Assembly: GCA_916048095.2 (NCBI GenBank)
Contig: OU696579.1
Coordinates: 9,034,163-9,098,162 of the forward strand
DNA: 64,000 nucleotides
Source: Sacculina carcini
Lineage: Eukaryota; Arthropoda; Thecostraca; Sacculinidae
Direction: 5' to 3'
The position numbers and the translations under genes are program-made. This document shows, one piece after another, positions 8,331 to 44,711 of this stretch; position 1 is the stretch's first letter, and each line of letters opens with the position of its first letter. The notes beneath the pieces are model-generated. The model worked only from the letters and a program-made list of their open reading frames with translations, searched no databases and had not been told where the DNA came from.

Positions 8331-8388
<58 letters not shown>

Positions 8389-11300
8389 CTTGTTCAGTCC
8401 TTCACCGGAGAAGGTTGTGTCTGTGGCCCGGCTCCTCAGTTAGGTTAGGTGTGTATTTAAAAGTGCTCGCGCGATTTTGTGAGCGTGTCCGGTCGCGTGT
8501 TTACACGTTTACCGTGACACCTGTCATCATCAATCATCGCGGTGGCCGTTTCGCAGGACGACTGCGCGTGTAAATACCCCAGTGTGCCAGTGTGTTTATT
8601 GTGCCAGTGTTTCCCCTTGTAGTCATACCCACCCTTCTAGTCATCGACCACCCACATTGTGCCAGTGAAATTCGTGTATATTGAATAATGTGTGTATATA
8701 GTTTTGTGTAATTGTAGCCTGCAATGACGCAAGAGCTACATCATTTGTCGTGCGCTGTTTGTGACTCTACAAACGGAGTGCGACAGACGCAAAATGATGT
8801 GGCTCTCTGCAGAGCATGCGACGTATTCTGGCGGCGACACCAGGGCAGCGGCGTGCGGGGGAGACAGTGCGACCGTGGAGGCAGCTGCCGTCTCACTCCG
8901 CACGACAGATCGTGCGCGCCATGCCGTCTAGCCCGTTGCCAAGCTGTCGGAATTCAGGCCGAGCGGGCCCCCAGCGCAGACACGGGATCCTACCCCACGC
9001 AGCCGTGTCATCACTGCGGCACTGCCAACAGCAGAAGGCGGGTGATTTCCTGCGCGCAATGTGAGCGGTTATTCCACCTCAATTGCGTGGGAATCACCCG
9101 GGCACAAGCCGACGTCTTGCCGGTGTGGCATTGCGGTGCGTGCATGCAGAGCCGCGGTGCGGATGGCGACGTGGACCCGCCAGCCGACGTTAACACCACT
9201 ACTCCGACAGACCTGGCTGCGGCGCTTGCCGAGCTCAGACAGAAACGCCGAGTGCGTCAGCACGTCCCACGTGCGCTGCGTCATCGGGTGGCAGCCGACC
9301 TCGCACAGCACATCACGGCGGCTCTGGAACAGCGCTCCCTCTCGGCCTGGTGGAAGCTGCTGTCATACGCCTTGACGGGTCCGATCAGCTCCGACGCAGC
9401 AGCAAGGAAGAAGCGGGGCACACAAAACCGAGTGCGATCACAGCACGACGAAAACGAGGCCAGATCCCGCGGCGTCAGAGCCAAGTGCGCCGATGGAGAC
9501 ATTGGTGCAGCGCTCCGCCTGCTGACATCCAGCGACTGCTTGGCCGGGGACGACGAGGCAGTGACCGCCGAGCTCGAGCGCAAGCACCCGCCTGCAATGC
9601 CGGACGAGCAGCTGCAGATGCATGACACCGGAACACTGCCGATTTTTGAGGAGCACGAGATCCGCTCCGTCGTGCACTCGATGCCCAAAGGCTCATCGGG
9701 AGGACTGGACGGAATACGGCCGCTACATCTCCGCCAGCTCATCGCGCCACAGACGGCTGAAGCGGGTGCCCAGCTGCTGAAGGCACTGACGCAGCTGTGC
9801 AACTGTTGCGTACAGGGTCGCATCCCGGACTTCGTGCTTGGCGCATTCTACAGCGCGCGACTAATCGCATTGCGCAAGAAGTCCGGCGGGCTGCGCCCAG
9901 TAGCCGTCGGCAGTGTTTTGCGGCGCCTCGCCAGCAAACTGATAGCTGGCAAAATGACGAGCGCAGTCGCACAGCAGTTGCGCCCCGTTCAGCTCGGAGT
10001 GGGGTGCAAGCTGGGCTGCGAAGCGGCCGTGCACGCCACGCGCGCTTTCGTCAATGAGGCTAACGGTCGGCATGGTCACATTCTGCTGAAGCTGGATGTG
10101 ACCAACGCCTTCAACACCCTCAGTCGGCGCGCGCTGCTCGACGAAGTCGCCTGTCGTTTCCCCGCAGCATTGCCGCTCGTCCAGCAGGCGTACGGCCAGC
10201 CAACCCCACTGTACCACGGCACCACGCGAATCTGGTCCTGTCGCGGTGTACAGCAGGGAGACCCGCTCGGGCCCATCTTGTTCGCCCTCGCCGTCGACCC
10301 AGTGGCCCAGTCTCTCCAGTCGCCATTGAACCTGTGGTTCCTGGACGACGCCACACTGTCAGGCCCCAGGGAAGTGGTGCTTGCAGACGTCAGCCGCCTG
10401 ATCCCGGCCCTCGGCAGCATGGGCCTCGAGCTAAACGCCGGCAAATGCGAAGTTGTCAGTCTGGGTCCAGCCACTGACACACGACCAGCAGAGACCGACG
10501 ACTCGAACGAGGCCGCCACATCACTGCTTGCCTCGGCCACAGTCACGCCGCTCTCCGACCTCCATCTGCTCGGCGCACCAGTGCAGACTGGCGGCATTGC
10601 AGAGGCGCTCAACAAAATCGAGCACCAAACGTCCCTGCTGATCCAGCGCTCAGTCAACATCGGCTCGCACCCGGCGCTGTTTTTTTCTCAGCAGGTACGC
10701 ATCGGTTCCGCGGGCAATATACCTACTGAGAGCAGCGCCGGTGTACCAGGCCCGCGAACAAATGGGTGACATCGACGAGCAGCTGAGATCGGCCATCAGC
10801 GATTGCTGCAATGTCGCCATGTCAGACGCACAGTGGCTGCAGGCTTCTCTTCCGGTCCGCCACGGAGGTATCGGAGCCAGACGGCTGAGCGACGTGGCAC
10901 TACCTGCCCACATCGCCTCGCTGGAAGCTACCCGAGACTTGGTCTGTCTCATTAACCACCGCACAAGCGGTGACAGACCCTGCTCTCTGGTGGCAGCCAT
11001 CGAGGAGTTCGTGGACACCATGTGCCCGGACTTCAGCGCGAGCGAGCCACTGCAACAGCGCCACCTAGACGACCGATCTTCCTCCGTCCGCCAACAACAT
11101 CTCCTCGGAAGCGCGAACCAGCTGTGCCGAGCCCGTCTCCTGGCCGCGTCCGCTCCTCACAGTGGCGCTTGGCTGTCAGCGCTGCCTGTCGCCAGCCTCG
11201 GCTTGCTGCTGCCAGACGAAGCCGTCCGAGTCGGCGTGGCGTTGCGACTAGGTGCCGCAGTGCAAGAGCCGCACAGGTGTCGCTGCGGTGCCACAACTGA

Positions 11301-11893
11301 CAGGTGGGGCCACCATAGCCTCTCCTGCAGTCGCAATGCCGGCCGCCTGCCACGCCACACAGCGCTGAACAACATCATTCGCCGCAGTTTGGCGTCGGCA
11401 GGAATCGCCGCGGTGCTGGAGCCAAGAGGCCTGGACCGCGGCGACGGCCGCCGACCGGATGGAATCACCGTGTTCCCGGTGCGGCACGGCAAGTCGCTGC
11501 TCTGGGATGTGACCTGCGTCAACACGTTCTGTGACACACATCTGCTGGACGGCGCGGTCACTCCCGGGGCAGCAGCGCAGGCGGCGGAAGTCCGAAAGCG
11601 GCGGCGCTACTCAGAACTGTGCCAGCGGTACGATTTCGTGCCGCTGGCCATCGAGACCACCGGCGTGATGGGGGCATCCCTGGACGACTTCGTGAAGCTC
11701 CTGGGCGGCAGAATCAGCGAGCGTTCAGGGGAGCCGCGAGAGACGGCCTGGCTTCGACAACGAATAAGCCTGGCCGTCATTCGTGGCAACGCCGCCTCCA
11801 TTGTTTTATAGTAATATTGTAAATATGTGTACACGTTTGTAAATATATTTGTTTGTGTCCAAAAAAACAAAAAAAAAACAAAAAAAAAAAAAC
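7996..11893 (+). mobile_element. RLE-type non-LTR retrotransposon, near full length
   Basis: The element starts near the GC-rich hairpin (GGCGCGCGTGGGACA / TGTCCCACGCGCGCC, 7999-8032). It has a CA-rich leader of ~700 bp with a (CA)n block at 8335-8386 and a TATTTAAA box near 8453, then one long coding region (8724-11811). A very short 3' UTR ends in an A-rich tail at 11861-11892. It lies in sense orientation in the transporter intron 7168-12131. I could not find clear target-site duplications, so both ends are approximate. A single-base frameshift is the only obvious lesion. Confidence 0.8.
8724..11811 (+). pseudogene. NR-type zinc finger / PHD / reverse transcriptase / RLE polyprotein, one frameshift
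   Basis: Residues 10-77 read C-x2-C-x15-C-x2-C, FWRR, C-x5-C-x8-C-x2-C, RLARCQAVGI. This is the layout of a nuclear-receptor DNA-binding domain. Residues 95-140 form a C4HC3 PHD finger (C-x2-C-x11-C-x2-C-x4-H-x2-C-x15-C-x2-C with Trp135). The reverse transcriptase follows: GLDGIRPLHL, RPVAVGSVLRRLASKLI, LKLDVTNAFNTL (motif A, ~457), GVQQGDPLGPILF (B), FLDDATL (C, ~539) and GLELNAGKC (D). After 10686 the frame shifts. 10687-11811 continues with PRAIYLLRA, a CCHC-like CRCGATTDRWGHHSLSC, then RPDGIT, LLWDVTC, RKRRRYSELC and ETTG, as in a PD-(D/E)XK endonuclease. The shift coincides with a T7 run at 10680-10686 where both frames fit a T6. This looks like a recent mutation or an assembly error. 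Confidence 0.88.
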
Positions 11894-12131
11894 ACACACA
11901 CACACACACACACACTAATGGCTCAGCAATATACCACAGATGGCATCGAAATGGTGGCTAGCATAGATGGCTAGCTGAAAGCGAATGTTGGTTCAGACCC
12001 TAGAAGTTTTACAAATAATTGAGGCTTTCCCTTCGAAGACATTTTTATTTTAATAATTGTTAACGTCATTCCGTGTGTGTGTGTGTGTGTGTGTTTGTGC
12101 GTATGTATGTGTGTGTGTGTGTGTGTACCAG

Positions 12132-14039: not shown

Positions 14040-15505
14040 CGGGTTGTTCAACAGGTCCCTGATGGATGTAATTTTGTGTTGGCGTCTGAGTTGTGTGATG
14101 GTGTGTGGTGCTGAATTGCAATATGGACAGGTGTCATCGATTGAGTTATTGAACCTTTTCTGATATGACAGAAGGGCAGGATGATGACCGCATATCAACC
14201 TGGCCAGATGCACCTTGTTTTCGCGTGTTAGTGTGTTTTCTGATTTGTGTATATCACTTGATGTCTTTGTAGGAGTGTATTGTGTTGTAGTGAGTGTATG
14301 GCTTTCCGTGCGATCTCTGTGTGTATGTGTTTCTTGATTGATGTGCGTGGGGGAGCTGGTGGAAGTGATGTGAAAATTTGTCTGTGGTAAAGTGTGCTTG
14401 GTTTTGTTTTTATGCTTCTGTTTGTGTTTTCTTGTGTTGTGAGGCGATGTAGTGGATGTGCTGTGCTGGTGACTGCTGCTGCGAGTGTTTGTGTGCCTCT
14501 CATGTCTAGGTGGTGTTTCAGTTTGAGGATTTTTGTTTCGTGATGGAGGTGGTCGTGTGTGTGTGGGATGATCGTGTTGTTGATGGTGATTTGTGGTGTG
14601 TAGTTGTGTTGGGATGTCCAGTTGGTGATGAGTGTGACTGTGGATTTGGCAGGTGCAATGTTCAGCTTGTTTGTGGTGAACCATTGTTGTAGTGTGTTGA
14701 TGTAAGGTTGTAGTGCGTGCACTGCTGTGTCGGCGTGTCTGTGTGTGCTTGTGATTGCAATGTCGTCTGTATATGATGATATCTGTATGGATGGAGTGTT
14801 CGGTGCTGGCATGTCATGTAGGTATAGATTGAACCGTGTTGGTGCTAAAACGGAGTCCTGAGGGACTCCGTTTGTTATGTTGCGTGTGTGAGATGATTGT
14901 CCATTGTACCTCACATGGGCGCATCTGCCAGCGAGGTAGTTGGCCAACCATCTCTTAGTGTTATTGTGAAGTGTGGTGTTTAGTATTTTGTTTGTGAGAT
15001 TGTGTCGTGGAACTCTGTCGAAGGCTTTGCTGATGTCGAGTGTTATGAGTAGTGTTCTGTGTGGTGGTTTTGTTGTGTTTATGTTACCCATCATGGTCTG
15101 TGTGAGTTTTGTGAGCAGTGTGGTTGTAGAGTGCAGTGATCTGAAGCCGTGTTGTGATTGTGAGAGTGGGATTTGTGATGTGATGAGTTTGAGTATGAGG
15201 CGTTCTGTGATTTTTGATGGTGTGCAGAGCAGTGTGATTGGACGATGTGAAGAAGGTAGCGTGGGATATGTGCCTTGTTTGTGAAGAGTGAGGATGATGC
15301 CCGTTTTCCAGATGTGAGGTATTGTGTTGTGTGAGTAGCTGTAGTTGGATATGTTGGTGAGTGTCTGTATGCCTTGTGGTCCAAGATGTTTCAGATGGAT
15401 GTTACTTATTCCATCTGGACCACAGGCTGATGATTGTTTGATGTTGTGTATGTTGTGTCGTGTCTGCGCATGTGTGAATGGTGTGTATAGTGGATCTGTG
15501 CTCAA
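14040..15505 (-). pseudogene. reverse transcriptase of the antisense non-LTR element
   Basis: The main frame (15505 to 14228) opens with ACGPDGISNIHLKHLG, then SHRPITLLC, QHGFRSLHSTTTLLTKLTQ, LLITLDISKAFDRVP (motif A), NGVPQDSVLAPTRFNLY (motif B) and SSYTDDIAI (motif C). In motif B the usual Gly of GVPQGS is Asp, and motif C is YTDD rather than Y/FADD. A second frame continues from about 14290 to 14040 with LARLICGHHPALLSYQKR and CPYCNSAPHTITQL, the usual Cys-rich C-terminus, so a frameshift separates the two. The Asp for Gly change and the shift suggest a dead copy. Confidence 0.85.
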
Positions 15506-16038
15506 TGTGTGTTTTCGTCTGATGATTTTTCTATCTTCATGTGAAGGAGTGATGTGGCTGATGTGTGAGTCATTATTAATGAGTGTGTTTGCCTGTTGTT
15601 TATTTGATGGTACTGATGTTGTGTCGGTCGTGATGGCTGCGTGTGTGCGTGTTACATTGCTGTTTGAGAGTGTGATGCTTTTGAGTGTGTTGTATAGTTT
15701 TAAGTTGTTTGATTTGTGGTCTAGTGTTTCTATTTAGTTGTGCCAGCTTTGTGATTTTTTTCGTGTATTTTGCTGTTGATTGTTGTGTTGAGTGCGTCTA
15801 TTTGTTCTGATGTATTGTGTGAGTGTGGTGTCTGAGAGTGTTTCAGTGTGTCGCGTTGTTTGATGAGTGTGTTTATTACTTGTGTTAATTTTGGGCTTTG
15901 GTGTCTTCTGTTATCTTTTGGAATGTGTTTGTCTGCCTTGTGTATGATGTCGTTAAATGTTTGGACTGTTTTGTTTATGTCTGTGATGTCTGTTGTGTTG
16001 AGTTGTGTAAATGCTAGTTCCGTGTCGTGTGTGAATTG

Positions 16039-16780
16039 TTACCAATTGGATTTTGTGTCATTTGTGTAAGTGCGTCTGGGTGTGTTTGATACTGCTCTGA
16101 TTTTGGTGGTGATGACGATTGGAAGGTGGTCTGAGCCAAGCTCTTTGACCACCTTCCAAGTGGTTGTGTGGGTGAGATTCGGTGTGCAAAATGTGATGTC
16201 GGGTGATGTCGGATGATAGTGTGCCTGATGTGTGGTGTCAGTGTGTTGATGAGTGTTGTTGAGTATGTAGAGGTGTTCTGTTTGTTGTAGTATGTCTGTG
16301 CCTCTGTTGGTGAGTGGATTGTGTGTGTACCAGGCAGGATCTTTGGCGTTGAAGTCTCTGCCCAGTATTATGTTAGTTGTTTTTGTGATGTTGCGTATAT
16401 CTGGTGTGTAGTTGCGAGGTACTGTTAGTGAAGTTTGTGGTGGAATATATACGTTGATTATTGAATGTTTACCGGTGCGTATTTGAATCGACTGTAATTC
16501 TGTTGTGGTGTCGTTTGATGGTAGATATGCTTGTGTCTGTGTGCTGGTGTTTGTGTATTTGATTGTTCTGTGTATAAGTGTGATGAGGCCACTGCCTCGG
16601 CCGCTAGTGCGGTCTTGGCGCATGGTGGTGTAATTGTGAAAGGTGGGTGTTCTGTGGTGCTGTTGTAATTTTGTTTCCTGTATGAGTGCTATGTGAATGG
16701 AGTGTCGTGTGAGGAAGTGTGTTAGTTCATGTTTTGTTGGTACCGTCGATGTTAAGCTGGAGAATGTTGATGTTGTGTGT
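16039..16780 (-). pseudogene. APE endonuclease domain of the antisense non-LTR element
   Basis: The minus frame contains SGRGSGLITLIHR, IINVYIPPQ, ILGRDFNAKDPAW, TSPDITFCTPN and LGSDHLPIVITT. These are the catalytic and structural motifs of apurinic-like endonucleases (DFNA, SPDI, SDHLP). An upstream frame (16780-16620) supplies LQLNIDG and a QETKL-like block in another register. The frame ends SNW-stop where relatives continue with Gln, so a CAA to TAA change is likely. Confidence 0.85.
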
Positions 16781-17151: not shown

Positions 17152-17330
17152 CTATGTTGTGAAGTGATGTGCATGTGGTGTGCACCAGTTCATGCAGGAG
17201 TTACACTGAACTGAGCATTTCGTGTGTCGGCGTGTTGTGAGTGGCTGTGTACATATGTGGCAGGTGTATGTGTGTCTCGGACCTGAATTTTGTTCTACGT
17301 CTCCTGCGAGTAGGAGCATACGTGAAATGA
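17152..17330 (-). pseudogene. 2A-like peptide plus zinc-binding segment at start of the antisense element
   Basis: The minus frame reads RMLLLAGDVEQNSGP (17278-17301 for DVEQNSGP), then YTCHICTQPL and CSVQCNSCMNWCTPHAH. Non-LTR elements of several invertebrates carry a 2A-like D(V/I)ExNPGP at this place, followed by a PHD-like finger. Here the critical Pro is Ser (NSGP), so ribosome skipping is probably lost. The open frame runs on to 18054 only because it overlaps the opposite strand of a transporter exon. Confidence 0.75.
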
Positions 17331-17746
17331 TCGTGAGCGGGTCATATCTCGATGCCCCCGCAGGAGACGGTGACATGAGTGGAAATGAAAATGAGCGTGT
17401 GCGTGTGAGGCGAGCGGTGTTTGTACAGTGTCTGTTGTTTTTGTATGTGTAGCGTGGCGTCACGATTTGTGCCAGCTGCACTGAGCTGAAAAAAAGAAAA
17501 AAAGATAAATAGATGACCTGTGGAACCCGGGTGACCGAAGCCGATCCCAGGAGCTCGAAAGCCCCGTCGTTCTGACGAGGCTGGAAGGGTTGTTGCTGCG
17601 GTTTGGCCTCCAGATAGGAGGGTTGTCCCACGACGTTAGACATCGCAGCTCCAGGACCAGCTTCCGTTGTTGTTGTTTTCCAGGAGCGACCTGTGTGCAT
17701 AAATGTGTGATATTTGTGTGTGTGTGTGTGTGTTTGACGACGACAG

Positions 17747-18025
17747 GTGAGAACGTTGATCAGTGACTTTGGCGTGATCATTGCCATAGCCGTGATGACC
17801 GCAGTTGACTGTGTGGCCGGCATTAACACGCCCAAGCTGCAGCTACCTGGTGCCTTCACTCCCACCTGGCATGGGCGTGGCTGGCTCATTTCACCGTTTG
17901 GCCATTCGAACCCGTGGTGGACTGCAGTTGCGGCCGCCCTCCCCGCCTTGCTCGGAGTCATTCTGATCTTCATGGACCAGCAGATAACTGCCGTTATTGT
18001 CAACCGCAAGGAGCACAAGTTGAAG
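17747..18025 (+). CDS. SLC4-like: SLC4-like transporter exon: [10 protein letters not shown] to HKLK
   Basis: It encodes [20 protein letters not shown], then [30 protein letters not shown] and [19 protein letters not shown]. [21 protein letters not shown] is one of the most conserved SLC4 stretches. The acceptor GACGACAG lies just after a (TG)n tract and the donor is AAG|gtgcat. Phase 0 both ends; 93 codons. Confidence 0.97.
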
Positions 18026-18580
18026 GTGCATCTCATACTCTCATTCTCTCTCACTCTCTCACTCTGACACTCTCACACATTTAATCATTTTTCACGTATT
18101 ATTTTTTGAGCTAAAATGATTATCTTGTGCTAAGATGGTCGTGAGGACCGCCAAGAAGAACTCAGAATTTGACGAGGGCGTCACAATTGACATAATACTC
18201 AGTGCAGCGTTTTTTCAGATTGTTTTTCCAGTGCAGAATGGCGATTAATTTAGATTGTTTGTAGATAATTTTGGTACATTGTGTTTATTTTGATCATCAT
18301 GGACCGCTTTTTCAGTAAATTTTGTTTTTTAAAGTGTAGCGATCATTTGGAGGTGTTTTCAAATTTGCCTTCATTCCGTTCTGGTGCGTTTTTATGGTGA
18401 CTCCGTGAACGTTTTTATCTCCATGCGTTTCTTTTTATGTATAAGTATGTATGTGTGTGTGTGCATGTAAATATATGTGTGTGTATGTGTGTGTGTGTGT
18501 GTGTATGCGTGTGTGCGTGTGTGTGTACGTATGTATGTGTGTGTGCATGTATGTATGTGTGTGTGTGTGCGGTTTTGCAG
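18026..18580. other. intron, (TG)n-rich 3' half
   Basis: No element recognised. 18440-18570 is TG-rich and ends at the GGTTTTGCAG acceptor. A (TC)-rich ACTCTCACTCTC run lies at 18036-18066. Confidence 0.6.
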
Positions 18581-20165: not shown

Positions 20166-20803
20166 TGGAAAAAGTGTGTGCGTCTACGTGTGTGTTATAT
20201 GTGTGCGTTCATGTAGGCATTGAGCTGATGTCTTGCACGTTGTCTAACAATGTGAGAGTTTAGGTTCAGCTCAGGCTGAACTAGCCAAGTAGTGAATTAT
20301 TCTTTCACAATTGAGCGAATATTATTGTATTTCATCAACCAATTATTTATTGATTGATTGTTTTATATATTTATTTATTGCCTAATTTATACGCCTTGCA
20401 TTTACAAACTGTTTAATAGATCTTATGTTTCAAAACAATGTTGGAATGACGTCTATTTGTTTATGTAGTCATAATTTTCGCAAATTGTCTATTATACATT
20501 GTAGATGTGTGTTGTGGGTGTTTTGTTGTATATTTCCTGTATGTTTTGTTCTTCCATGTTATTGCTCCTGTCTCCCTGTATTTTGATGATCGAGTTACAT
20601 CGAGATAGCAAGCATGCAATTTTCAACGCTTGCGCTTTTCCATTCCACCTTGTTCTTGTTTCACCTTGTTTATCACAGCTTGACATTTCACGTAGCGCAT
20701 CGAGTTCTGTTCGTGACATTGTTCTAGCTGATCCAGTAGAATTTGATGGCGAAATTCGCACACGCTTCTGCCTGCATTGTGCATATTTGGCCGTGTTTCT
20801 CAG
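20166..20803. other. intron, nothing recognised
   Basis: AT-rich intron. A minus-strand open frame (20492-20839) contains [18 protein letters not shown]. It matches nothing I can name and overlaps the following exon's acceptor. Confidence 0.5.
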
Positions 20804-21014
20804 AGAGAATCGTCTCACCCATGTGCTCATCTTCGCCACAATCGGTCTGTCCGTGCTGATGACTCCTTTGCTGAGGCTGATCCCGATGCCAGTGCTGTTT
20901 GGTGTGTTTCTCTACATGGGAGTCAGTGCACTGAAAGGTCTTCAGTTCTTCGACCGCATTCTCATCATGTTGATGCCGGTCAAATACCAGCCTGACTACT
21001 CGTTCTTGCGCCAG
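20804..21014 (+). CDS. SLC4-like: SLC4-like transporter exon: [20 protein letters not shown]
   Basis: One base completes the Arg codon, then [52 protein letters not shown] and QPDYSFLRQ are encoded. The family equivalents are EQRVTGLxIF, [28 protein letters not shown] and HQPDxxYLR. The acceptor is GTTTCTCAG. To join in frame to VPLKRVH at 25822 the exon must end CGC-CAG|gcgggt. That makes this a GC-AG intron unless the base is wrong. The in-frame reading runs to a TGA seven bases later. Confidence 0.9.
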
Positions 21015-21793
21015 GCGGGTTGATTACACGACTTCATGCTGATCATACACGTCTCACTCGTCCGCCAATCTATACCACTCATGAATCTCACCTCATTGTG
21101 TCACATCCAAAAACAACACTTACCGCAGCTATCACGTACACGAGCCAAGTATACAAGAATATGCCATGAGTCTGTGTCTATGACTCTAGATTCAACAAAT
21201 CAGCACATTTATAATAAATTCATGTTATTGAAATTATGTCGCACAATCGATGGGAGGCTATGCCTTCCAGCAGAAAATGATACGTCCTACTAGCATTCTA
21301 GCGTTTTTGTAGCTTCAGTTTCATGCGTGTTTGTGGCACATCGCAAAACATTCCCCCTGTGACAGAGGCAGTTATATTCGTGCTTAATTATCGTGTTTCT
21401 GTATTGTATTTGTGCGCGACCATACTTTCTTAATATCTTCGTACTAATTAGGTTAATCATACACTTAAAACATAATGCATATTCGGTGTCCGCTTTCATC
21501 CTATTTTACCATAAACATTGATATATCCACTTAAGGTTGACCACTTAAATGGAATTCCTGGGCCTGCCCTTGCGAATAATTCAATTGCATTTACAGAAAA
21601 ATGCATCACGTTTTACTCACTGGCCGCTAATATTTCCGCTAATATCCACTCTGCCGAATAATATTGAATTGTGATAAAGTGAAATTATTTGATTTTATCC
21701 AGTGTTTTATTAACAACTCAAATACTGTTGAACGGCTCGAATTACATACAAACACCAATCTACCAAATGCAAATTATTTATGTAAGATAAGGT
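21015..21793. other. intron, nothing recognised on + strand
   Basis: No coding feature recognised. The minus strand up to about 21794 lies downstream of the polyadenylation signal of the nested peptide gene. Confidence 0.5.
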
Positions 21794-32646: not shown

Positions 32647-34066
32647 CAGGGTGTTCCAATAAATTTGACGTCATTTTAAATGCCCGTATCTCGGAAACTA
32701 CTCAGTGTATAAATAATTTTGACGTCATTTTAAATGTAGTATCTTAATGAAACTACGCACACTTTATGTTGAACATCATAAGTTTTATTAGTTAACATTA
32801 CAAAGAAAAAACAAAGATTTGCAGATTATATGACAGATTTCACGATTTTCACAAATGTTCAATGTGAGCGCCGCCTGTGACTCTGCACACGTCAAGTCAT
32901 CATTCTTGGAGATGGCGGTAATCAAACTCGTGCCAAACACGCTGCAGCATGTCTTTGGTAACATTCTCCAGTGCGGCAGTGATTCTCTGCTTGAGTTCTT
33001 GAACGTTAGCCGGAAGAGGGGGGACATGGACGAGTCCTTTCAAATATCCCAAGAGGAAAAAATCACACGGTGTCAGGTCAGGTGATCGTGGTGGCCATTT
33101 CAGCAGCAAATTGTCTTCCTCACCACCACGCCCAATCCATCTCTCTGGCAGATTCTCATTGAGATAGGCCCGTACAGTGAGCCTCCAGTGAGATGGAGCC
33201 CCGTCCTGTTGAAAAATGAAGTTTTCATGTGCATTTTCAATGAGCTGATCAAATAGCCAGTTTTGAAGAATTTGCAGATAAACATCCCCGTCCACATTTC
33301 CTTCAAAGAAAAATGGTCTATGAATTTGATTCTTGGAGATGGCGCAGAACACGTTCACTATTGGTGAGTCCCTCACGTGCTCAATTGTGTCATGGTGATT
33401 TTCTTCGCCTCAAATGCGAAAATTATGCTTATTGACTTTGCCAGTCGAATGAAACGTTGCTTCATCACTGAAAATTTGACGCTCATCGAACTCGTCTTCT
33501 TCAAGTTTCTGTAGCATATCATCACAGACTTCTTTACGTTTTCGCCTCAACGAGCTGCAGCCTGTAGGGTTTCATTTGCAATCGTTTCCTCAGAACGCGC
33601 CAAACTGTTGTTCGAGGAATCTGGGTTTCCAGACTTGCTCTTCTTACAGACTTCTTGAGACTTCGCAGGAATAGTTCACGAACACGCCGACCTTCTCTTC
33701 CGCTGTTGATGGCCGGCCAGATTCTTTAGCCCTGCATAAGCAGCCTTCCTCTTTGAATTTATGGTGCCAGGTCCAAATCTGTTTACTAGTTGGTGCATTT
33801 TTGGCAAATTTTGCAAAGAAGCTGCACGCTCTTGGGTGACTGTGTTCGAGCATATTCTAACACGCAAAATGACTTTTCTATTGAAGTTAACGGCATTTCT
33901 CAACCTGAAAAGAGATAAATGTAACACATTTGTAACACAAATGTAATCATTAAATATAAAATTTTGAACTGATCCTATACAAGCTGTGAAAATTTGAGGT
34001 CATTTCAACAAAAATTGCCAAAATTGTTGGCGTGCGAAATGACGTCAAAATTATTGGGATACCCTG
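32647..34066 (-). mobile_element. mariner-like element with TIRs and TA target sites
   Basis: The left end CAGGGTGTTCCAATAAATTT and inverted right end CAGGGTATCCCAATAATTTT continue through TGACGTCATTT. Both ends are flanked by TA (32645-32646, 34067-34068). At 1420 bp the length is normal for a mariner. The transposase lies on the minus strand and is broken. A second copy of the inner TIR phrase (AATTTTGACGTCATTTTAAA) lies just inside the left end at ~32714. Confidence 0.93.
32870..33910 (-). pseudogene. mariner-type transposase, dead
   Basis: The longest frame (33376-32900) reads DSPIVNVFCAISKNQIHRPF, FIFQQDGAPSHW, LPERWIGRGG and WPPRSPDLTPCDFFLLGYLK, then VHVPPLP and MLQRVWHEFDYR. It contains the second and third catalytic Asp regions (QQDGAPSHW; SPDLTPCDFF). 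The upstream part is in other frames: KNAPTSKQIWTWHHKFKEEG and ESGRPSTAEE (HTH region, 33853-33700) and a DEATFH-type first Asp region near 33460. A stop sits where relatives have Trp (HNFRI-stop). Nonsense plus frameshifts show it is inactive. Confidence 0.88.
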
Positions 34067-42554: not shown

Positions 42555-43535
42555 ATGGCTTCAAAGCGTAAAGTGAACTCTTCAGATAATAGCGCATCTA
42601 AGAAAAGGAAGGTCATCACCATGTACATGAAATTAGACATTGTGAAACGAGCAGAAAAGGGAGAGAGGCCAGCGGATATCGGCCGTGCACTGCACCTAAG
42701 CCGTACGACTGTTGTAACCATCGTCAAGGATAAAAACCGCGTCATTGAACATGTGAAGGGATCCGCTACTATGCAATCAACTGTGATAACTAAACAGCGT
42801 AGCGGTCTCATTATTGATATGGAGAGACTTCTGGCGCTGTGGCTGGAGGACCAGCATCAACGGCGTATCCCGGTGAGCCTTATTTGGATTCAAGAAAACG
42901 CGAAAACATTGTTTGAGGCACTGAAGAGTGAAAAGGGAAAAGAGAGTGAAAGTGAACAGTTGTCGGCCAGCAGGGGTTGGTTCTTGCGGTTTAAGGAGCG
43001 TAATCATTATCATAACCTTAAATTGCAAGGTGAAGCTGCAAGTGGTGATGAGAAAGCAGCAAGAGCTTATCCTCGTGATTAGGATGAAATAATTCAGAAG
43101 GAAGGTTACGTCGCTGAACAGATTTTTAATGTGGACGAGACGGGTATAATTTGGAAGCGGATGCCCAGGCGTACGTACATAGCCAAGGAAGAGAAAGCAG
43201 CGCCAGGTTATAAAGCCAGCAAGGAGAGGCTAAATTTACTTCTTGGGAGCAATTCAGCTGGTGAATACAAGCTGAAGCCCTTGCTAGTGTATCGATCGGA
43301 AATTTCGAAGGATCAACTACCTGTCATCTGGAGGTCCAACAATAAAGCGTGGGTCACGCTTCATACATTCGAGGATTGGTTTACCAACCACTTTGTTCTA
43401 GAAGTTGAACGTTACTGTTCTTCCAAGGGATTGCCCTTTAAAGTGTTGCTAGTGCTGGATGATGTCCCAGGTCACCCTGCCCGCTTGGATGACTCTCATC
43501 CCAATGTCAAGGTAGTTTATGTTCCGCCTAATCCT
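42555..43535 (+). pseudogene. Tigger-type transposase, N-terminal two thirds
   Basis: MASKRKVNSSDNSASKKRKV leads to a psq-type HTH (KLDIVKRAEKGERPADIGRA, LSRTTVVTIVKDKNRV). A CENP-B-type second domain (LALWLEDQHQRRIPVSLIWI, SASRGWFLRFKERN) follows. The DDE domain then has FNVDETGIIWKRMPRRTYIA, RLNLLLGSNSAG, LKPLLVYRSE, LPVIWRSNNKAWVT, FEDWFTNHFV and LLVLDDVPGHP. An in-frame TAG at 43080-43082 interrupts it, and both sides share one frame. The end is lost at a junction with satellite sequence (CCGCCTAATCCTAA), where both partners share CCTAAT. Confidence 0.92.
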
Positions 43536-44711
43536 AATCTTAAATGTGAAAACGTTGCGCTAAAAACAAAAGGTTGCATTCATAACTTATTTAATACTTT
43601 TTTCAGATCAATAAAATATTGATTTTTGGGCTCCTTATGACAAACAGATTCTATGACACAAAAGTTGCATTTGCAACAAAAGGTCAACCTGATTTTTTAT
43701 ATTAACTGAGCTGTGTGTGTTTATGTGTGTGAGTGTGTTTGTGTGAATACGTGTTGGTGTGTATGTGTATGCAAATGTGTGTGTATGTGTCGGTGAGTTT
43801 CTACATTTTACATTCTACTGGTTTTTCAGACGGCCTGTGTGAGCCACAAAGACCACAAATACTTGGGCAAATTGAGTTTTGTTCTCAGAATCGCAGCGCA
43901 CCTCAAATGGCCAGTGTGCGCGATATAGCTGAATTTATCATGTGGGTTTTCCAGTTGAACAGCGTATATGCATGCTTTCTACCCGAATATGACCCTGAGT
44001 AACAGTCGTAAATCGTATTTTACAACGTGATACCAGAATGATGTGTGCTGCTGAATGTAGATATATCGTTTTCTATTAGCATGAAAAACCGCCCTTTGTG
44101 CGGAGCAATTCATTTAATATAATTCATACTTTATTCATAAAAAGTATTGCAAATTCAAAAAAGGTGAACTCATAAAAATCTGAACCAAATGAAAAGTCCA
44201 AATTTAATCATTTTTGTTCTAATTTTGACAAAATATGTTCCTTCAACCCGCCTCATATTTAAACCCGCCCGTCGTGCGGAATAATTCAGAAATAAAACAC
44301 GAAACAAACACAATTAAAAATGGTGAAAACTTTTCATCGGAATGTTTCCCAAACATATTTAGAACTTAACATCATTCCCCAACATCATTTGCTCAAGTAC
44401 TATTCTACTTTTACCGCTACCGCAACTTTAACCGTTATCATATATTTCGGTATCATTTAAACCCAACATAACTTGACCCAAACCTACCAAACCCAACCCA
44501 ACCACCAAATCCTGACCTAACCCAGCCTAATCTGAGGTGATCCAACATATTAGTTTGTGATCACAAAATGAACCGATTCAATCATAATTTCTAATCAGAA
44601 GTTTGAGATTATCTACGCCAGGGGTCTCAAACACGCGGCCCACCAATTCTTTTCTCGCAGCTCGCCATTATAGTATAGAAACCAAATTGTAAAACTGAGG
44701 GTGGGACAGAC
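43536..44711. repeat. diverged copy of the 1.66-kb unit
   Basis: The order of blocks matches the array units from the AAAAAGTTGCGCTAAAA phrase on, through the TG-led frame (43733-44002) and the AACCGCCCTTTGTGCGGAG and CGCCCGTCGTGCGGAAT motifs to GGCCCACCAATTCTTTTCTC. It is clearly more diverged than the four array units from each other. The 88-codon frame is kept open despite a 9-bp insertion and a 6-bp deletion. Confidence 0.88.

Follow-up and report, generated by a model that had tools for sequence, protein, structure and literature searches.

The stretch of DNA analyzed in this study, referred to here as the window, comprises 64,000 nucleotides of the Sacculina carcini genome (assembly GCA_916048095.2, contig OU696579.1, positions 9,034,163 to 9,098,162 of the forward strand). 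At 8388..11892, it carries a broken copy of a target-specific non-long terminal repeat (non-LTR) retrotransposon of the restriction-like endonuclease (RLE), or R2-like, type. This copy runs from its TCTTGTTCAGTCC... start to an A-rich tail, with boundaries common to sister copies and a first base placed to within one or two positions. The start lies immediately 3' of an (AC)n array at 8334..8386, and the A-rich tail (11861..11892), also present in sister copies, is followed by (AC)n at 11892..11915. The 5' untranslated region, delimited from the sequence and sister copies, occupies 8388..8723. An open reading frame (ORF) of 681 residues at 8724..10769 encodes a nuclear-receptor-type C4 DNA-binding domain (residues 9-78; 8748..8957), a C4HC3 PHD finger (residues 95-140; 9006..9143), and a reverse transcriptase (RT; RVT_1, residues 384-579; 9873..10460). 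A second ORF of 356 residues in another frame (10741..11811) encodes an R2-like region ahead of the nuclease, a CCHC knuckle (residues 180-196 of this ORF; 11278..11328), and the RLE with its PDG ... WDxT ... K motif (11344..11670, ends approximate). All of these features are on the plus strand. An earlier note on this DNA had placed RT and nuclease in one reading unit. This does not apply to the window copy, in which the first frame stops at 10769, but it applies to many sister copies, which have a single frame of about 1028 residues. The order in the intact protein is nuclear-receptor-type C4 DNA-binding domain, PHD finger, RT, CCHC knuckle, and RLE.

The translation of 8724-9145 gave the 140 residues described in the earlier note, with the finger cysteines at the noted places (C10-x2-C13-x15-C29-x2-C32 and C49-x5-C55-x8-C64-x2-C67). 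Their spacing, said there to match nuclear receptors, was close but not identical: the finger loops are x15 and x8 in the window copy, whereas x13 and x9 are the norm in nuclear receptors. The androgen receptor chain in our alignment also displays x13 and x9, and the relative P0006 has x14 and x9. In a Pfam scan, the 140-residue piece matched zf-C4 (PF00105) with an E value of 4.2e-6 (27.6 bits; cut-off, 21.1) and, over residues 95-140, the PHD family (PF00628) with 1.6e-7 (31.7 bits; cut-off, 24). Both were also above the cut-off in the 681-residue frame (23.6 and 28.3 bits), and zf-C4 scored 34-56 bits in all eight relatives scanned with Pfam. Searching solved structures with this 140-residue piece, phmmer found nuclear-receptor DNA-binding domains at E 3.6e-4 and above; a nuclear receptor DNA-binding domain, the vitamin D receptor, and an estrogen-related receptor (ERR) were the best matches (E 3.6e-4 to 5.2e-4). 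Structure prediction gave the double treble-clef fold of a nuclear-receptor DNA-binding domain.

The earlier note had left a choice between a captured host domain and convergence on C4 fingers. The window copy alone gives a weak match (E 4e-6), and against the receptor norm one of its loops is two residues longer and the other one residue shorter, as convergence would allow. However, P0006 matched the androgen receptor with E 1.5e-14 (query 11-84), including the C-terminal CRLQKCxxxGM, and Pfam zf-C4 with E 4.4e-15, and the fold is that of nuclear receptors. These results favor capture, and convergence was rejected as highly improbable. The domain resembles the C4 DNA-binding domain of animal nuclear receptors (GR, AR, ERR, VDR, RAR) in sequence and fold. 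In contrast to these receptors, the element protein does not keep the P-box lysine and is fused to PHD-RT-RLE, and the Pfam scan of either frame found no ligand-binding domain family, indicating that the full-length protein is not itself a nuclear receptor.

The PHD finger matched the folds of 5yc3 and 5y20, and its eight ligands and W135 were invariant in 14 of 14 rows. Two relatives weigh against a constant PHD finger, which is below the Pfam cut-off in P0014 and unlisted for P0006. The RT matched RVT_1 in Pfam (E 2.8e-16) and the chains of R2. Alignment columns of the CCHC knuckle were invariant, and the PD-(D/E)XK-type nuclease motif was kept in 27 rows. With the C-terminal part as query, phmmer found nothing credible among solved structures (best E 1.4), and a fold search matched that part to R2. 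The C-terminal half of the element protein is R2-like. Pfam matched no CCHH fingers or Myb domain in the 681-residue frame, in which the head is zf-C4 plus PHD.

The earlier note had proposed a search for a target sequence shared among insertions, and such a target was found in (AC)n arrays. The flanks of 41 copies of family A, the window copy and 40 more that were fetched, were scored on the sense strand over 60 bases on the 5' side (at least 20% in runs) and 110 bases on the 3' side (at least 15%). AC-rich sequence was present in 37 of the 41 5' flanks and 34 of the 41 3' flanks, and GT-rich sequence in 0/41 on either side. Random stretches of the window were AC-rich or GT-rich in 4.1% and 4.2% of cases at 60 bases and in 4.8% and 5.0% at 110 bases. 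The sign test on the 5' orientation, 37 versus 0, gave 1.5e-11. A genome-wide search located 25 exact 5' ends. In 22 of these, an upstream ACACAC lies within 8 bases; the remaining three (L034, L045, L052) have 5' flanks that are AC-rich by the 60-base measure. These results demonstrate that family A targets (AC)n arrays, nearly always in one orientation, which is new here. Targeting of a canonical hormone-response element was unsupported, the flanks being AC arrays.

Several observations weigh against such a target. The 41 copies were among the best-matching ones, the fetched copies coming from the upper part of 153 genome matches, and not a random draw. Four 5' flanks missed the threshold: L044 (a TTG repeat), L054 (N), L056, and L059. 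Seven of the 41 3' flanks did so as well; in some of these (e.g., L046 and L047), inspection by eye reveals an AC array that was missed or shortened by the stretch measured, and L051 shows no clear one. Among stretches 400-1000 bases from the copies, 114/698 were AC-rich and 22/698 GT-rich, indicating that the arrays lie in AC-rich surroundings. AC flanks might be tails derived from the element or an effect of an AC-rich genome; the window is AC/GT-rich, with about 4% of 60-base stretches on each strand, and the 3' tail is itself A/C-rich. However, AC-rich sequence stands on both sides in one orientation, and most copies truncated at many different 5' points adjoin it too. Furthermore, 15 of the 41 copies had at least five non-AC 12-mers common to their own two flanks, compared with 120/1640 mismatched pairs, as the splitting of a single array by the insertion would predict; one of the 15 is L034, which has another copy just upstream. 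We therefore give either account very little chance, and an element-derived tail was rejected on the grounds of the orientation and of the AC-rich sequence next to most truncated copies.

The 3' sides of other subfamilies of the genome (41-52% identity in the N-terminal part) were also inspected. Sixteen stretches were fetched, of which two read N and 14 were readable. An A-tail running into an AC-rich array was found in eight of the 14 (L062, L063, L066-L069, L071, L072), and an AC-rich array with no A-tail in view in four more (L073-L076). The exceptions, L064 with a GT array and L061 with no array, speak against a common target. Judged on 3' flanks, the target choice seems common to the receptor-bearing subfamilies of the Sacculina carcini genome.

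We compared 18 copies whose ORF is exactly 1028 residues long for the ratio of nonsynonymous to synonymous differences per site (pN/pS). The ratio was 0.35 in the receptor domain, 0.19 in the PHD finger, 0.85 in residues 141-300, 0.57 in the RT, and 0.27 in the C-terminal part. It reached 5.2 in the 16-residue linker between receptor domain and PHD finger, a figure with few changes behind it. Between subfamilies, pN was about 0.32-0.47 in the receptor domain, 0.23-0.39 in the PHD finger, and 0.49-0.77 in the linker, with a high pS (0.56 or more in the receptor domain). The receptor-type domain is under purifying selection. Pairwise ORF identity among the 18 copies had a minimum of 96.8%, a median of 98.5%, and a maximum of 99.8%, which suggests recent activity. 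Copies were also seen in clusters (C31:5934245-5958784, C22:6176935-6184722, C8:7416241-7429597), in which two are 3.8 kb apart and one set repeats every 6539 bases. At L034, one copy directly follows another with AC-rich sequence between them.

The relatives were placed on a tree of the RT region (55 rows, quick method, midpoint root). All five receptor-bearing rows, two of which are near-identical sequences of the Sacculina carcini genome, fell in one group of 16 with a Shimodaira-Hasegawa-like approximate likelihood ratio test (SH-aLRT) value of 99, and all 16 PHD-only rows fell outside it. P0014 from Petrolisthes cinctipes, automatically named 'Nuclear receptor domain-conta...', is inside the same RT clade as the window element and has a receptor domain, a sub-cut-off PHD-like finger, and an RT in one protein; it is a 604-residue database record known from protein alone. 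The earlier note had named the loss of these cysteines in related elements as grounds against a receptor-type domain, along with an insignificant zf-C4 match and the lack of a receptor-like fold; neither of the latter two results arose. Nearer relatives keep all eight (9/9 rows, picked because they match), and the pattern is missing in the 16 PHD-only relatives outside the clade.

The receptor domain was probably captured once, which is the simplest reading of these sequences rather than a demonstrated one. The label 'receptor plus PHD' alone requires three changes on the tree, because rows with possible remnants are scored as without the domain, and one origin depends on reading those rows as cut records. 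Eight group members (P0005, P0007-P0013) have no complete receptor domain in their records, and seven of the eight carry the PHD pattern. The record of P0007 begins inside the receptor-domain end (MRRCLDAGM), and those of P0009-P0013 begin at a methionine aligned by eye with that end. P0015, P0016, and P0040, the rest of the group, begin downstream of the PHD finger. Among the PHD-only rows, P0019, P0024, and P0026 (3/16) have at least about 85 residues before the PHD finger and no receptor pattern. Besides the eight incomplete records themselves, a single capture has against it that P0005 starts inside the PHD finger, that the 68 residues ahead of the PHD finger in P0008 are unlike the receptor domain, and that the other 13 PHD-only rows extend so little upstream that they may have lost a head.

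Further searches yielded few relatives. Residues 1-150 of the window protein gave 59 candidates in a protein search, none at E ≤ 0.001, and residues 1-240 of P0006 gave only P0006, P0010, and P0013 among 1461 candidates. Viral contigs had 229 pattern stretches and no relatives. Prokaryote genome contigs had 22 stretches and one relative, with 33% identity, on a contig labeled Tolypothrix sp. FACHB-123 (L086, 3258-4889); this distant RT may be contamination or a real bacterial RT. P0040 is automatically named as a SLACS protein, which we treat as a lead only on a relation of the element to the CRE, R4, NeSL, HERO, or Togen clades. A 2A-like motif (GD[IV]E.NPGP), which may split off an N-terminal peptide, lies upstream of the PHD-type finger in P0026, P0039, P0045, and P0065, rows outside the receptor clade or unplaced on the tree. 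A UCH ubiquitin-specific protease domain lies C-terminal of the RT in P0053, P0056 (named as barnacle), P0060, and P0096, possibly a further domain capture or a gene-prediction fusion.

An ancestor that was already PHD-RT-RLE would have acquired, probably in a single event, its DNA-binding domain from a nuclear receptor of an animal. In R2, reverse transcription of the element RNA is primed by the free 3' end that the RLE leaves on nicking one strand. By analogy, the protein of the present element would nick an (AC)n array on its GT strand, and the resulting (GT)n 3' end would prime reverse transcription of the A-tailed element RNA. The fixed orientation points to the GT strand as the primer; an RNA end of A plus AC could pair with this strand. 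The least certain steps concern the head. The receptor-type domain may be an N-terminal nucleic-acid-binding module that replaces the CCHH/Myb head of R2 and would hold the protein on the target DNA, and the PHD finger would contact chromatin or a protein partner. Nucleic-acid binding by the domain is consistent with its N-terminal position, fold, and constraint. That it helps to hold the target DNA has, in our estimate, slightly less than an even chance, and that it is the main reader of the target we propose only tentatively.

In nuclear receptors, the P-box lysine after the fourth cysteine reads canonical half-sites. Residue 33, in the place of this lysine, was D, K, R, Q, L, N, Q, R, and L in nine rows, of which the first six are subfamilies of the Sacculina carcini genome with mostly AC-rich 3' flanks. 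The window copy thus has D, and K stands in one of the nine rows. This variability across subfamilies whose 3' flanks are mostly AC-rich weighs against canonical target reading by the P-box helix. It is quite possible, if somewhat short of even, that the receptor finger does not read the target and instead has element RNA, the 5' junction, or a host protein as its ligand, with the site chosen by the RLE, the CCHC knuckle, and priming by A/AC-rich RNA on (GT)n. The variable P-box beside a target that looks common to subfamilies would fit this, as would A-rich tails leading straight into AC and an RLE part no less constrained than the receptor domain (pN/pS 0.27 versus 0.35). However, the domain retains the receptor fold and R38 (8/9 rows), and the N-terminal fingers of R2 bind target DNA. 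Taken together, an R2-like (AC)n element with a single receptor-domain capture and the proposed roles of priming and head is, we consider, the likely explanation. A more specific proposal is that the captured domain was turned from a reader of hormone-response elements into an (AC)n targeting head, with the PHD finger adding chromatin choice; we regard this as rather doubtful.

The element resembles R2 (Bombyx, Taeniopygia, and Platysternon structures) in its RT and C-terminal CCHC-RLE fold, single ORF in intact copies, 5' truncation, and target-specific insertion. Unlike R2, it has a head of receptor-type C4 plus PHD instead of CCHH/Myb, and its flanks are (AC)n and not the single 28S ribosomal DNA site of the R2 clade proper. 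R1-clade elements use an apurinic/apyrimidinic endonuclease (APE), and the PHD-bearing CR1 and L2 elements carry one. According to the part of PMC3124438 consulted, Mino, of the R1 clade, also inserts in AC repeats, whereas the window element uses an RLE. RLE elements that target microsatellites are described in the part of PMC4640811 consulted, namely the NeSL-related fish Togen, which is (TG)n-specific, and some HERO families. By that description they are alike in RLE and microsatellite target, and Togen in the same dinucleotide repeat; the account mentions no receptor domain there, and PHD has 0 occurrences in its text. Many subgroups of CR1 and L2 also contain PHD fingers, often N-terminal as in the present element, but usually in ORF1. 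These long interspersed nuclear elements (LINEs) belong to the Jockey superfamily, and 'nuclear receptor' has 0 occurrences in the consulted text of that 2014 paper, which suggested a targeting role for the PHD finger and whose authors knew of no functional study (PMC4120745). BLAG elements, in the consulted part of PMC7650587, have CCHH fingers, unlike the window element. A keyword search of open-license PMC full text, with Repbase and subscription papers outside its scope, found no description of a nuclear-receptor domain in a retrotransposon, nor was an earlier description found of the combination of a receptor-type domain at the front of the RT protein with insertion mostly into (AC)n repeats in a nearly fixed orientation.

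The window holds other mobile-element pieces. A second retrotransposon at 14228-16623 (-) matched RVT_1 (E 2.3e-31) and Exo_endo_phos_2 (E 3.8e-16), indicating the APE type. An ORF at 17152-18054 (-), with no Pfam match, ends in a Cys/His-rich, PHD-like finger preceded by GDVEQNSGP, which we take to be a degenerate 2A-type sequence; it is perhaps a CR1-like element. Pogo/Tigger-like transposase pieces (CENP-B_N, HTH_Tnp_Tc5, DDE_1) lie at 42555-43622 (+), and a DDE_3-like transposase piece, below the Pfam cut-off, at 32900-33376 (-). A bicarbonate transporter exon (HCO3_cotransp, E 4.6e-31) was found at 20505-21023 (+), and, judged by eye, the element seems to be intronic in this gene and to run in its direction.

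Nuclear-receptor DNA-binding domains are regarded as a hallmark of animal transcription factors. Here, one such domain heads a retrotransposon protein and is maintained by selection, which indicates that it was recruited for gene mobility. How the heads of R2-type enzymes set their target is a live question. This family offers a different, well-understood DNA-binding fold, a simple target, and several subfamilies with variable contact residues, and these features make the role of the head directly testable. R2-encoded proteins are being employed to insert transgenes into cultured human cells, according to the part of PMC11331408 consulted. If a receptor domain was indeed turned into an (AC)n targeting head, nature would have retargeted an R2-type enzyme in modular fashion, using a domain with a well-studied DNA code.
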